This document shows, in pieces, positions 17,508-23,209 of a stretch of DNA of 24,948 nt. The notes beneath the pieces were generated by a model. It worked only from the letters and a program-made list of their open reading frames with translations. It did no database searches and had not been told where the DNA came from. Made by a program: the position numbers and the translations under genes. This stretch comes from Clostridia bacterium (GTDB lineage Bacteria; Bacillota_A; Clostridia; Christensenellales; Aristaeellaceae), in NCBI GenBank assembly GCA_017432405.1, contig JAFRJF010000252.1:1-24948 (forward strand). Direction: 5' to 3'. Numbering within the stretch: position 1 is the first letter of the stretch; every line of letters starts with the position of its first letter.

Positions 17508-18326
17508 TTATCCGCGTCGCTTCACGGGATAGCAGATCTCCGTCACAAACTCGTCCGGGTTCTGGGTCTCGTGGGGGCTGACGTGGTAGATGTTGAACAT
17601 GGCTCCCGAGGGCTCATAGCCGTTGGCTTCGATCCACGCGACCACCGCCGCGTAGACCTCCGTGATCAGGGTGTAGCTGCCCTTGTAGGTGCAGCTGGCG
17701 ACGGTCACCTCCGGCAGCGTGCGGAACTTCACGTGCTCTGTGTCGGGATAGTGGCCCTTCACGGTCTTCCAGGCCATCACCTCCACGTCCTCCTCCTTGT
17801 ACTCCCCGTCCAGGAAGGTCACCGCGCAGAGGCAGGGGTCCGCCTCCACGAGGTTCATCCGGCAGGTCTCCTGCACGAGCGTGCCCCACACCATGCCCTC
17901 GTCCTCATAGCGGGGAATGGTCATCTGAACGGTGGCGGCGTAGCGCTCGGGAATGGTTCTGATGGTTACGTCATAGCTCATGTGCTCTTCCTTTCTCAGC
18001 CTTTTGACGGCTGCGTCCAGAAGCGTCAGCCTCCGCGCGGTATCCTGAGCCTGGGCTTCCATCTCCGCCCGCCGAGTGGAAAAGAACGGCTCCAGCTGTT
18101 CGCGGTCGTCATAGACCTCGAGCATCCTGACGATGTCGGCGAGGGAGAAGCCCATGTCCTTCAGCGCGGCGATGCGGCCCGCCATCGGCAGCTGATCCTC
18201 CCTGTAATACCGATAATCCGTGAAGCGGTCGATCTCGGCGGGCTTCAAAAGTCCAATCTCATCGTAGTGGCGCAGCATTCTGACGCTGACCCTGGACAGC
18301 TTTGAAAATTCTCCGATCTTCAGCAT
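17508..18326 (-). CDS. MerR-family regulator with GyrI-like effector-binding domain
   Basis: The protein has 272 residues. An N-terminal MerR winged helix-turn-helix (1-70: LKIGEFSKLSRVSVRMLRHY, then YRYYREDQL) is followed by a dimerising coiled coil (about 75-115) and a C-terminal GyrI-like/AraC effector-binding domain (about 118-270), ending near VSPHETQNPDEFVTEICYPV. This is the BmrR/BltR architecture: family members bind amphipathic drugs or metabolites and activate promoters with over-long spacers. GGAGGT lies 6 nt before the ATG. Its own promoter (18368-18398) has exactly that long spacer, so it is probably autoregulated. The small hydrolase gene downstream is a likely member of its regulon. 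The ligand cannot be predicted. Confidence 0.9.
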   Translation of the reverse strand: MLKIGEFSKLSRVSVRMLRHYDEIGLLKPAEIDRFTDYRYYREDQLPMAGRIAALKDMGFSLADIVRMLEVYDDREQLEPFFSTRRAEMEAQAQDTARRLTLLDAAVKRLRKEEHMSYDVTIRTIPERYAATVQMTIPRYEDEGMVWGTLVQETCRMNLVEADPCLCAVTFLDGEYKEEDVEVMAWKTVKGHYPDTEHVKFRTLPEVTVASCTYKGSYTLITEVYAAVVAWIEANGYEPSGAMFNIYHVSPHETQNPDEFVTEICYPVKRRG

Positions 18327-18406: not shown

Positions 18407-18550
18407 TCAGCGTTCCGATTTCAGGATGGCATACCAGCACGCATCACATATTCCCTGGTTATTGCGATCCGAGCATCTCAATGTGCCTTCATATTTCATC
18501 CCGCATTTTTGCATCACCATGCCGGAATGAGGGTTATCTTCTTTATGATC
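18407..18550 (-). pseudogene. C-terminal remnant of a GNAT N-acetyltransferase
   Basis: A 47-codon minus-strand frame has no start codon. It reads DNPHSGMVMQKCGMKYEGTL, then a stretch ending ICDACWYAILKSER and a stop. This is the recognisable end of RimJ/RimL-type acetyltransferases, covering the NPxSxxVMxKxGM acetyl-CoA helix and the final YAI strand. The first 110 or so residues of the family are missing; the fragment begins at the end of the HTH-desulfoferrodoxin gene and ends just before the MerR promoter. It must be non-functional. It indicates a past deletion or insertion here. Confidence 0.75.
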
Positions 18551-19127
18551 TCATTGAAAACAGCCCGTGTCGGTTGCAATAGACATAGAGACCTCTCACG
18601 CGGCTGCGCTTGAACCGCGCTTCCGCTGCTCCTTCCGGATACAGCTTGACGATCTGCATTCCCAGATCCGACACCGCCGCCAGGAACGAGATGTAATGCG
18701 CCTTGGTCATGGGATGATCCATCCAGACGTATATCTCGTCCTCCATGACTTCCACATGGATGGCATGGCTTTCATCCGCCGTCTCAGGCGCCAGCGGCGG
18801 CAGCACGATGCCGCAGCAGCTGATCACCGCCTCCCCCGTCGCCAGGATCACGTTGCCGCAGGCGGGGCAGACATACCAGACGCTCTTCAGCATGTTGAAG
18901 GCGCGGTTCCGGTTCCGTATATCCTCCCCGGACAGCAGTTCGATCACGGAAATATCCAGCGCGCCTGCCAGTGGCTCCAGCAGGCTGATATCCGGAAAGC
19001 CCTTCCCCGTTTCCCATTTACTCACCGCCTTCGCGCTCACATGGATGCGCTCCGCCAGCTCCTCCTGCGTAAGTCCCTTTCGCTCCCTCAAGTTTCGAAT
19101 CGTTGCTCCGGTCACATAGTTATCCAT
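18543..19127 (-). CDS. HTH (XRE) regulator fused to a complete desulfoferrodoxin/superoxide-reductase-like domain
   Basis: The protein has 194 residues. Residues 7-65 are an XRE helix-turn-helix (IRNLRERKGLTQEELAERI, then KAVSKWETGKGFPD). From 85 on it matches class I desulfoferrodoxin. Cys87-x2-Cys90 and Cys104-Cys105 match the rubredoxin-like iron centre. Glu119-x-His121, His138, His144, Cys184 and His187 match the catalytic Fe(His)4(Cys) centre with the right local spacing (H-x5-H, C-x2-H) and the CNxHG signature. The catalytic-lid lysine is a serine here (Ser120). Superoxide reductases reduce superoxide to peroxide in anaerobes, so this may be an iron-based redox or superoxide sensor that controls transcription; that is inference. 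The frame extends 11 codons further to 19160, but AAGGAGG lies 8 nt before the ATG at 19127. Confidence 0.85.
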   Translation of the reverse strand: MDNYVTGATIRNLRERKGLTQEELAERIHVSAKAVSKWETGKGFPDISLLEPLAGALDISVIELLSGEDIRNRNRAFNMLKSVWYVCPACGNVILATGEAVISCCGIVLPPLAPETADESHAIHVEVMEDEIYVWMDHPMTKAHYISFLAAVSDLGMQIVKLYPEGAAEARFKRSRVRGLYVYCNRHGLFSMRS

Positions 19128-19150
19128 TGCTTTCGCCTCCTTGCGGAGCC

Positions 19151-19207
19151 AGTTTAACATGTGTTTTCAGTGAGGACAACCTACGAAGCGTAGACAGTGG
19201 GGCAACC
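19151..19207 (-). promoter_or_regulatory. Promoter region of the HTH-desulfoferrodoxin gene with direct repeat and small hairpin
   Basis: On the minus strand TTGTCC (19174-19179), a 17-nt spacer and TAAACT (19151-19156) form a moderate promoter. A repeated motif, GGTTGCCCCACTG (19195-19207) and GGTTGTCCTCACTG (19168-19181), flanks a small palindrome CTACGCTTCGTAG (19181-19193). The repeats could be operator half-sites, perhaps for autoregulation. Confidence 0.4.
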
Positions 19208-19219
19208 GGCCGGCTCGGT

Positions 19220-20275
19220 TCAGCTCTCTTCGAGAATCCGCAGTCCCTCCCGGCAATCCTGCCCCAAAATCTCCTGCGTTTTCGCAAAATCGTATTTCTG
19301 ATGGAGCCGGTCGTGCACCTTCAGGAATGCCTTCTTTCCATGCTTTCGAATGTACATGGCCTGCGCCTTCGCAGCCTGAGCGCCGTCGTTCGAGGGAATA
19401 TAGAATCCCGCTTCGCAGCTTTCCAAATCGGCACATTCGTAGCACCCGTCGATGCCCTTTTCCTGACAACAGACCGCGTTGGGACATTTGCCATCCGGGG
19501 AGATCGTGGCAAAGGCGCAGACGTTATACGCCGTCCGGCATGGCCCGCACCATTCAGCCAGAAAGCAATGATTGCAGGAAAAGCCGCAGTAGGCGATGGG
19601 ATCGACGCCCCTTCGGGCCTGCCTGCACAGCCTGTTCTTGATGCGCCGCATGGCTTCGATGTGCATGATCCAGTGCCGGCTGAACGGCATTTTGACGAGC
19701 CCCAGCACGTCCTTTGAGCACCAGTAGCTGATCAGCCAGCGCGCGCTTTCATCCCCGCTGACACAGCCGGTCGCCCCCAGCTTTTCGACCATGTCCGCCC
19801 CGAATTTGCGCTTCAGATCGGGGTATTCCAGGGACGACAAAATCCCGTTCGTGGACTCCATGACTTCCCGGGCGTACCGGTACAGAGCTCTCACGTCCAG
19901 CTGTTTTGAGAAGTCCACGATCTCCTCACCTGCCAGCTCGTTGCCGGTGGTGATGATGGGCGAGCGAATTGCCGTCTGGAAATCCAAGTGGAATAGCACC
20001 TGTTGATCCTCCGCGATCATCTCATGTGCCACAATATCCTCGATGCGGAAAATGTGCCAGATGGAATAGGCCAGCGTCTTGCTGTGGTACCCCTCTGCAC
20101 CTGCGAAGGGCATTTGCCAAAATGCCTCCTCCGGGAAGGTGGTCACAATCTGCGTGATCTGCTCAAACAGGCTCTTTCGCAGCTCCAGGAGCTTCCTTAT
20201 GCCGTCTTTGAAGGTGGCTTTCTTTGCAATCAGCGCTTGCATTTCTTTATTCATCTCAGACCAATGCTTGTCCAT
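19220..20275 (-). CDS. DinB-like domain fused to DUF3795 cysteine-rich domain
   Basis: The protein has 351 residues. The N-terminal part (about 1-225) is helical with DinB-superfamily features: a conserved YSIWHIFRIEDIVAHEMI helix and a late PFSRHWIMHIEAMRRI helix that could supply metal-binding histidines. The C-terminal part (about 228-295) is a DUF3795 domain with eleven or more cysteines (YCGFSCNHCFLAEWCGPC, then CPNAVCCQEKGIDGCYEC), probably binding zinc or iron-sulfur. A lysine-rich tail follows. DinB-fold proteins include bacillithiol- or mycothiol-dependent transferases; the substrate here is unknown. The frame can begin at a GTG (20290), but GTGAGGG lies 8 nt before the ATG at 20275. 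It follows the P-loop gene by under 40 nt and is probably co-transcribed with it. Confidence 0.75.
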   Translation of the reverse strand: MDKHWSEMNKEMQALIAKKATFKDGIRKLLELRKSLFEQITQIVTTFPEEAFWQMPFAGAEGYHSKTLAYSIWHIFRIEDIVAHEMIAEDQQVLFHLDFQTAIRSPIITTGNELAGEEIVDFSKQLDVRALYRYAREVMESTNGILSSLEYPDLKRKFGADMVEKLGATGCVSGDESARWLISYWCSKDVLGLVKMPFSRHWIMHIEAMRRIKNRLCRQARRGVDPIAYCGFSCNHCFLAEWCGPCRTAYNVCAFATISPDGKCPNAVCCQEKGIDGCYECADLESCEAGFYIPSNDGAQAAKAQAMYIRKHGKKAFLKVHDRLHQKYDFAKTQEILGQDCREGLRILEES

Positions 20276-20312
20276 GGTATGATCCCTCACGCTTATTCAG
20301 GTCGTTTTATCA

Positions 20313-21304: not shown

Positions 21305-23209
21305 TTATCGTATCACAAAGCCTCGCCTGGTTTTTTTGGCTTCATACAGTTTTTCATCCGCCCGGGTCGCAAGGGCTTCCCAATCAGTTCTGGTCTGAGC
21401 TATCCCCGTGGCATAGCCCACCGAGATCTCCAGAAAGTACGGCCGTTCCGAGCATTCGTTATACCGTTGACACATCACCTTGACCGAACGAATCTTCTCC
21501 TCGATTTCCTCCTCTGTCATCTGGACAAAGCATGCCTGGAACTCATCGCCGCCGATGCGTCCGATCACTTGCCCTGTGCCAAACACCTGGGTGAGAATCT
21601 TCGCGACGCTTTTCAGCGCGATATCGCCCTCCCGATGGCCGAAGTGATCGTTGATCTGCTTCAAATGGTCCAAGTCGGCCATGATGACCGTCACTGGCCT
21701 CTGCCTGTCAGCGGTCAAGCGCTCCCTTGCGCTGATCAAACCTGCGCGATTGTACAGGCCGGTCAGCTCATCGGTGCGCGCCATGGCCTGCAGCTGGGCG
21801 CGGTATTGCTTTTGCCGCGTCCAGATGTCCATATATCTCAGGCTCGTACCAATGTCGAGGGACAGCATGTAATAGAAATCTATCTTTTCCGGCTCGATTT
21901 CAACATTCAGTACGCCATATTGGTATTCTTCGTCAAACAGCAGGAACGTCATGACGTTGCCCGGGAAGCGGAACGCCGGATTGCCCGACTTCCGAAGCAT
22001 CACCGGCGCCTCGTCCCAGCTGTAGCCCTCCACATGCTTGCCCTCCTGCCGCATGCAAACATGTATCCTTTCCGGAAGATCCGGTATCGTACCCGGCTTG
22101 ACGCGCAACGGCTTCTCAAACAGGCAAAGATAGGAACCGGCTGTTCCAAGATAAGCCATGCAGGAACCGATCGAGGCAAAAAAACGCTTCGGATCATCCA
22201 CCTCCAGCAGCATTTCACGGTTCATCAGCGCGCCAATCCAGGAATTGTGCTGATACTCGCGGCTGCGCTGCAATCTGCGGATGACCTCTTCCTGCTCCGG
22301 ACGTTCCTGCCCCTTTTCAGGCGCACAGCCACAGGAGCAGCGGCGTATAAAGGGCACATGGATTCTTCTTGAATTGACGCTCTCGCCCCGAAGTATACCC
22401 AGGGCGCTCTCAACGTCCTGCCTGGAAAAGGCGTCATAATCCTGCCGCGCTGTGGTGAGAGGAGGGTCCATATAGCCAGCCATCAGCATATCGTCAAAGC
22501 CCGTTACCGCGATGTCCTTGCCGACCTCCAGGCCCCGTGCGCGGCACACCCGGTAGATTGCCACGGTCATCTCGTCGTTCGCGGATACGATCGCTTCCAA
22601 TTCAGGCGCGTGATCCAGCAGCTGTTCCACACTTCTGTCCACATTCTCGGAATAATCGCCCTGCACGATGTATTCCTCGCGTATCGGAATGCCGTGCTTT
22701 ACGAGCGTATCCCGATATCCAATGAAGCGCTCCTCCGCGTCCTGGTTGTTCTTCGGTCCTGTAATATAGCCGATTCGAGTCAACCCATGGACCTCTATCA
22801 GGTGCTCTACGCACCCGGCGATGCCCTGCGTGTTGTCCGCGATCAGGGTAATCCCGCGCTTTGGCGCACGGTCTGTCTCCGTCAGAATCATTGGAATATC
22901 AGGCGTGTGCCTCAGAAATTCCTCCAAGGGAATCTCATTTTGGTAAATGGAAAGCGTGCCGGCAGAAATGATCAGCAGATCGAGATTCTCATACTCCGTG
23001 TAGCCACAAAGCGAGGCATACTGATAGTCAAACCGGCTGGACCGCAGGGCAAAGTCCTGAATGAAGCTGGCGCTCTCCGTTCCAAGGAAGACCTGCAACT
23101 GCACATTTTCGTCCTTGAGCAGATTCCAGATCATATGTACCAGCCGGCCGGGATGATCCGTATGGTAGTTCCCGACGACGAAGCCAATCTTCTTTTTCGT
23201 TTCCTTCAT
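21305..23209 (-). CDS. Diguanylate cyclase with LacI-type ligand-binding sensor domain
   Basis: The protein has 634 residues and no signal peptide or membrane helix. Residues 7-290 are a periplasmic-binding-protein-like (LacI/Peripla_BP_3) sensor starting at KKIGFVVGNYHTDHPG, with no helix-turn-helix before it. A linker domain (about 290-455) has cysteines CSCGC near 295 and may be GAF-like. The C-terminal GGDEF domain (about 470-634) has FKxIND-like LKQINDHFGHREGD and an intact GGDEF at 553-557, so it should make c-di-GMP. The inhibitory RxxD site just before GGDEF is absent (GTGQ). A sugar or similar ligand would thus control c-di-GMP in the cytosol; that is inference from architecture. GAGGG is 9 nt before the ATG. 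The gene has its own promoter and operator at 23263-23304. Confidence 0.9.
   Translation of the reverse strand: MKETKKKIGFVVGNYHTDHPGRLVHMIWNLLKDENVQLQVFLGTESASFIQDFALRSSRFDYQYASLCGYTEYENLDLLIISAGTLSIYQNEIPLEEFLRHTPDIPMILTETDRAPKRGITLIADNTQGIAGCVEHLIEVHGLTRIGYITGPKNNQDAEERFIGYRDTLVKHGIPIREEYIVQGDYSENVDRSVEQLLDHAPELEAIVSANDEMTVAIYRVCRARGLEVGKDIAVTGFDDMLMAGYMDPPLTTARQDYDAFSRQDVESALGILRGESVNSRRIHVPFIRRCSCGCAPEKGQERPEQEEVIRRLQRSREYQHNSWIGALMNREMLLEVDDPKRFFASIGSCMAYLGTAGSYLCLFEKPLRVKPGTIPDLPERIHVCMRQEGKHVEGYSWDEAPVMLRKSGNPAFRFPGNVMTFLLFDEEYQYGVLNVEIEPEKIDFYYMLSLDIGTSLRYMDIWTRQKQYRAQLQAMARTDELTGLYNRAGLISARERLTADRQRPVTVIMADLDHLKQINDHFGHREGDIALKSVAKILTQVFGTGQVIGRIGGDEFQACFVQMTEEEIEEKIRSVKVMCQRYNECSERPYFLEISVGYATGIAQTRTDWEALATRADEKLYEAKKTRRGFVIR

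Follow-up and report, generated by a model that had tools for sequence, protein, structure and literature searches.

HTH-Dx-SOR from a Clostridia bacterium: a putative autoregulating redox regulator with a lidless desulfoferrodoxin module

Background

The window (the whole 24,948-nucleotide stretch analyzed here) encodes a protein in which an XRE-type helix-turn-helix (HTH) precedes a desulfoferrodoxin-like domain. This combination raises the question of whether the protein is an iron enzyme that manages its own supply, a regulator that uses the fold of superoxide reductase (SOR) as its input domain, or something else. A sequence-only reading had taken it for a possible one-component superoxide or redox sensor, and had implied that the architecture was new. 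Novelty can no longer be claimed: in 2011 SORGOdb distributed 325 SORs among seven classes and, in the available part of the paper, named an HTH-Dx-SOR class, then of 19 proteins (PMC3116461). The class is described there as an HTH followed by a desulforedoxin-like (Dx) domain and the SOR centre II domain, which is also the domain order of the window protein; the same part of the paper gives no function, operator or target for the class (PMC3116461). Some relatives carry the JGI name 'DNA-binding XRE family transcriptional regulator/desulfoferrodoxin'. With the architecture already known, what becomes newly readable is the regulatory circuit: an operator, its position in the promoter, a lost catalytic lid, a centre II that erodes in a sister clade, and a gene that may be a target. 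Together these turn a named but unexplained class into a testable one.

Results

Domain architecture and constraint

The proposed fusion was borne out, with an HTH_3 match (Table 1) and, behind the Dx domain, the SOR centre II domain. The alignment likewise bore out the presence of all four centre I cysteines and all five centre II ligands in the window protein. Fold matches of the XRE domain include P22 c2, C.AhdI, and SinR, and HppE and MPnS are also among the fold matches of the protein. In comparisons with seven relatives, dN/dS ranges from 0.11 to 0.18 for the whole gene, from 0.06 to 0.14 for the HTH and from 0.15 to 0.34 for the iron domain, i.e., the HTH is the more constrained part.

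Table 1 Features of the HTH-Dx-SOR locus, in window positions
Feature	Position	Strand	Details or basis
HTH-Dx-SOR gene, 194 aa	18543..19127	(-)	ATG at 19127, stop at 18543-18545
XRE/HTH_3 domain, residues 10-64	18936..19100	(-)	Pfam HTH_3 3.3e-14
Centre I cysteines C87, C90, C104, C105 (CX2CX13CC)	18813..18869	(-)	Alignments of relatives
Catalytic lid remnant (E119, S120 = Glu47/Lys48 positions) and first centre II His H121	18765..18773	(-)	
Centre II H138 and H144 (HPMTKAH)	18696..18716	(-)	Each 79/79 in the diverse set
Centre II C184 and H187 (CNRH)	18567..18578	(-)	C184 79/79, H187 71/79
Ribosome-binding site AAGGAGG	19136..19142	(-)	Sequence; feature shared by many relatives
Extended -10 TGTTAAACT, hexamer TAAACT at 19151-19156	19151..19159	(-)	Alignment of 65 promoters
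-35 element TTGTCC, 17 bp from the -10	19174..19179	(-)	Comparison of relatives
Putative operator CTACG-CTT-CGTAG, centre near -43, abutting the -35	19181..19193	(-)	Relatives' promoters, genome pattern searches

Iron ligands and the catalytic lid

In a close set, consisting of the window protein and the best 120 of 7999 passing proteins, the four centre I cysteines, H121, H144, C184, and H187 are each kept in 121/121 rows, and H138 in 120/121. The diverse set has 79 rows, i.e., the window protein and 78 of 80 genome loci (L052 and L073, with cut frames, were left out). In this set C87, C90, C104, H121, H138, H144, and C184 are each present in 79/79 rows, C105 in 74 (His in the remaining five) and H187 in 71 (Asp in seven, Gln in one). 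Five loci (L067, L071, L075, L076, and L078) all combine replacement of the fourth centre I cysteine by His with replacement of H187 by Asp, a paired change that touches both metal centres; at L193 the cysteine is replaced by His without the change at H187.

Replacement of the lid lysine, noted from the sequence, was confirmed: the window protein has Ser at this position, and Lys is found at the Lys48 position in 2/79 rows of the diverse set, being absent in 77/79. Glu is kept at the Glu47 position in 41/79. As judged from these alignments, the catalytic lid is lost across the class. A pairwise PDB alignment had indicated loss of both Glu47 and Lys48, with H124 as the ligand; this was ruled out by the multi-row alignment, where the ligand is H121 and the window protein has Glu at 119. 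Canonical SORs are encoded separately from the fusion in 14 of 20 genomes of relatives (E from 1e-23 to 6e-19). Glu-Lys-His is present in 11/11 of those read for the lid, the pattern having left L130, L133, and L137 unread. Compared with the canonical SORs, the fusion protein is three residues shorter before the lid and three residues shorter before the HPM motif.

Two clades with a different fate of centre II

A midpoint-rooted tree of 54 rows splits with 100/100 support into clade A, which contains the window protein (31 rows), and its sister clade B (23 rows). Among the best 120 of 4911 passing clade-B-type proteins, the four centre I cysteines are kept in 120/120, the H121 position is Glu in 101/120, C184 is Ser in 24/120, and H144 is lost in 13/120. 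Erosion of centre II in clade B is not uniform, as six of its loci (L172, L175, L176, L177, L185, and L186) keep all five ligands. The sensor proposal had counted on homologues with a complete set of ligands; this part stands for close relatives and mostly for clade A, and falls for the sister clade. As centre I is constant and centre II eroded in clade B, the core of the family is therefore the HTH with centre I rather than an intact active site, and for the same reason centre II cannot be the universal sensor.

Of 398 genomes sampled from one phylum, 30 have a match to HTH-Dx-SOR, a partial one in three cases. Members from Treponema are nested in the otherwise Bacillota clade A and possess the same operator, which suggests that gene and promoter were transferred together. 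In a sample of the phylum of Treponema, the gene is present in 2/120 genomes, one of them the sample centre.

A phased operator in front of the gene

In the window, the promoter has the sequence CTACGCTTCGTAG-G-TTGTCC-17 bp-TAAACT; a TG lies one base ahead of the last hexamer. The window contains a single copy of the palindrome, and by itself this could be due to chance. A generic promoter and terminator scan returned nothing, including at the proposed promoter, so that the -35 rests on comparison of relatives; Rfam and tRNA scans of the window gave no matches. The comparison covered 80 upstream regions (79 loci and the window; L052 was left out). A relaxed operator, defined with no reference to any -10, is present in 67/80 of them (shuffle mean 0.08). 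Full alignment was possible for 65 promoters; with the operator as the only anchor, the -10 hexamer has its T, A, and final T at the same offset in 65/65, and TG precedes it in most of them. Operator and phased -10 together were found in 73/80 promoters (shuffle mean 0.04), the offset being part of the test. Because of their shared ancestry these promoters do not count as 65 independent cases, and the fixed spacing weighs correspondingly less as evidence.

Further clade A promoters behave alike (7/8 pass the operator and -10 scoring). In clade B, 10/15 promoters pass with the same spacing, the right half-site being altered, in most cases to CGTTNATTG or a similar sequence (shuffle 0); the operator keeps its place, with a changed half-site, even at L161-L164, though their proteins are only 40-44% identical to that of the window. 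It is lacking in the other 5/15 clade B loci, which belong to a subclade (L178, L182, L183, L185, L186, L167, and L166) situated just behind a gene for a CobT-like vWA-domain protein; the five scored members of this subclade have no operator of their own. Comparative evidence of this kind indicates that the palindrome is a putative operator conserved in relatives from Clostridia to Treponema, and it strongly supports the autoregulation for which, as remarked earlier, the promoter carries suitable repeats.

Confinement of the operator to its own gene

In 30 gene-holding genomes, the relaxed pattern yielded 25 sites in 23 genomes (reversed-pattern control, 20). Of these sites, 24 lie beside an HTH-Dx-SOR gene and one in an ORF; one genome carries two HTH-Dx-SOR paralogues, and a site accompanies each of them. 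The other 7/30 genomes show no exact match to this pattern. Among 199 genomes, the operator was found in five, all of which belong to the 12 gene holders and have it upstream of the gene, and in 0/187 genomes without the gene (the reversed control gave five sites, in genomes without the gene). A search with one mismatch in 20 clade A genomes produced 26 sites, 21 of them at the gene and five extra (reversed control, 37). Three of the extra sites are inside ORFs, one is at L109, and one, phased and promoter-like, is at L110. The latter locus (L110:1502-2245, genome G022) has the operator with a phased -10 approximately 365 nt upstream of a stand-alone, HTH-less and lidless Dx-SOR relative. The palindrome without GGT, searched in eight genomes, gave 14 listed sites, eight at the gene and six (at five places) in ORFs (control, 34). 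Neither the one-mismatch (20 genomes) nor the GGT-less (eight genomes) search revealed a wider regulon in clade A; weaker sites are possible. By these pattern searches, the operator is nearly confined to its own gene in the genomes of relatives. Its location beside the gene, kept despite the change of half-site, is expected of the operator of an autoregulator, and the window protein is very probably one.

Candidate targets and gene neighbours

In 10 clade B genomes, the one-mismatch search gave eight sites, five at the gene and three elsewhere, and none in the control. Of the three sites elsewhere, the one in G309 lies at the end of a contig, and the other two (G199 and G249) are phased upstream of a gene whose 223-residue product is an FMN_red/flavodoxin-fold protein (Pfam 3e-17). 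The cysteine motif of the flavoprotein, CX2CX2CX7C, resembles that of iron-sulfur flavoproteins. At L199, L205, and L208, an FMN_red-family flavoprotein with this motif lies under the clade B operator. FMN_red-family genes are located near the regulator in 6/81 loci; in five of the six, the gene comes directly next to the regulator on that strand. Counted at E <= 1e-40 across the 398 genomes, the flavoprotein is present in 12, the regulator in 30, and both in seven (0.9 expected; Fisher 4e-6, kinship ignored). The flavoprotein gene starts 13-18 nt behind the regulator in three genomes (clade B, G033 and G162; clade A, G022), follows a phased operator of its own in three others, all of clade B (G199, G249, and G364), and shows neither arrangement in G413. 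Flavoprotein genomes without the regulator have the operator in 0/5 cases. The regulator thus appears, from operator and gene order, to control an FMN_red-family gene in part of clade B and at a few clade A loci. Since the flavoprotein was found in 0/29 other clade A genomes, the link is not extended to the window, where no target besides the gene itself is visible.

There are no fixed gene neighbours: the gene itself apart, no family occurs within five genes in more than 7/81 loci. Downstream in the window, on the same strand and 216 nt from the stop codon, lies a gene (17508-18326, (-)) for a MerR-type HTH with a GyrI-like ligand-binding domain, which falls in no shared neighbour cluster for the window across the 81 loci compared. 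Upstream, also on the same strand, a cysteine-rich protein is encoded (19220-20290, (-)), with no Pfam family above the cut-off; a similar gene is near the regulator in only 3/81 loci, window included. Farther away, a gene (21305-23209, (-)) joins a LacI-type sugar-binding sensor domain to a GGDEF diguanylate cyclase domain; its product may couple a ligand to c-di-GMP as a cytosolic sensor.

Discussion

A self-controlled regulator with an enzyme fold as its input domain

The observations are best accommodated, with somewhat better than even confidence, by an autoregulating one-component iron/redox regulator whose input domain is a lidless desulfoferrodoxin (2Fe SOR) module. Redox sensing by the window protein is, in itself, moderately probable. 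Centre I would hold iron as a rubredoxin-like FeCys4 site and centre II as FeHis4Cys, and the Dx-SOR domain would make the dimer needed by the palindrome. Binding of this dimer to the palindrome at about -43 may then be altered, and with it expression of the gene, when exposure to superoxide or O2 changes the redox state or occupancy of the iron. The signal would most likely be this change in redox state or occupancy of the iron, at centre I with or without centre II.

The fixed phasing of the operator to the -35 and -10, together with the poor -35, suggests class II-type activation. An activator that contacts sigma would need a fixed phase of this kind to a poor -35 and a recognizable -10, retained through the change of half-site and at three flavoprotein promoters, whereas repressors are usually less particular about operator position. 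The balance tips slightly towards such activation and away from repression. Apparent control of the FMN_red-family flavoprotein suggests that the output is probably oxidative-stress defence. It is hard to see an output for a regulator that controls itself alone, unless the protein also has an activity of its own; in most of clade A, where its own gene is the sole visible target, the protein may also scavenge. A fuller scenario can be offered tentatively: an SOR would have become a transcription factor, loss of the lid turning it into a superoxide/O2 sensor and a self-activating single-gene switch operating from -43, which in some lineages would also govern the iron-sulfur-type flavoprotein and in clade B would sense by FeCys4 alone.

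Alternative explanations

The clade A domain might instead be a working, perhaps slower, superoxide reductase, with an HTH that controls nothing beyond its own supply, i.e., sensor and effector would be the same. Some SORs do not strictly require the lid Lys, the best 120 of 7999 close relatives retain the nine ligands (H138 in 119/120), the own gene is the sole target seen in most clade A genomes examined, and an operator-bearing region lies upstream of the stand-alone HTH-less relative at L110. Such a self-supplying enzyme is nevertheless rather unlikely, as the lid Lys is gone in 77/79 and the lid loop shortened, C105 or H187 is replaced in some clade A lineages, and 14/20 genomes have a canonical SOR as well. 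In addition, clade B drops ligands yet keeps the HTH, centre I, and mostly the operator, as would be expected of a regulator more than of an enzyme.

Less likely still is a structural role of the Dx-SOR fold as a dimerization domain, possibly with bound zinc, the signal then being something other than redox (e.g., metal availability or a ligand). XRE repressors need a dimerization part, CX2CX13CC could hold Zn, and the centre I cysteines are constant in both groups (120/120 in the best 120 of 7999 and in the best 120 of 4911) while centre II drifts; against this, close relatives keep five centre II ligands that a structural role would not need, and part of the family is linked to the flavoprotein. 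A third possibility is an iron enzyme with a vestigial HTH, on the model of the fold matches HppE and MPnS, which are enzymes in spite of their XRE-like domain (as PDB titles indicate). This is very improbable in view of an operator that is conserved, specific to gene-holding genomes and different in its half-site between the clades, and of an HTH more constrained than the iron domain.

Comparison with known systems

Within the HTH-Dx-SOR class, the window protein differs from the spacing quoted for Dx in the available part of the SORGOdb paper (CXXCX15CC; PMC3116461) in having CX2CX13CC. The SOR from Treponema pallidum (PDB ID: 1y07) has no HTH, and its N-terminal domain is described there as lacking iron (PMC3116461). 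TrtA from T. denticola was considered as a member of the same family and rejected: it is an XRE oxygen-response protein of 104 residues, and the available part of its description mentions no Dfx part (PMC12724145). The open literature, covered as titles and abstract starts and with subscription journals mostly outside, contained no functional, operator or target study of the class; as far as could be seen, there is no earlier description of the operator, of lid loss as a trait of the class, of the difference in centre II between the clades, or of a link to the flavoprotein.

Canonical Dx-SOR or desulfoferrodoxin (2Fe-SOR; PDB ID: 1dfx, 1vzg, and 2ji1) has no HTH, an intact Glu-Lys lid, and longer loops at the lid and before HPM. 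The XRE repressor-activators (e.g., lambda/P22 c2 repressor and the C.AhdI controller protein) lack a metal domain. HppE and MPnS join an XRE-like domain to an iron-binding domain, as the window protein does; they are cupin enzymes and not of the SOR fold. To our knowledge, the SOR enzyme fold has no role in transcription elsewhere, nor is a redox regulator of the SoxR, PerR, or IscR type known with this fold. The latter regulators exert one-component, metal-based control of oxidative stress genes with other DNA-binding and sensor folds; if the preferred reading of HTH-Dx-SOR is true, its mostly anaerobic bacterial carriers own an oxygen-stress switch made from an enzyme fold.
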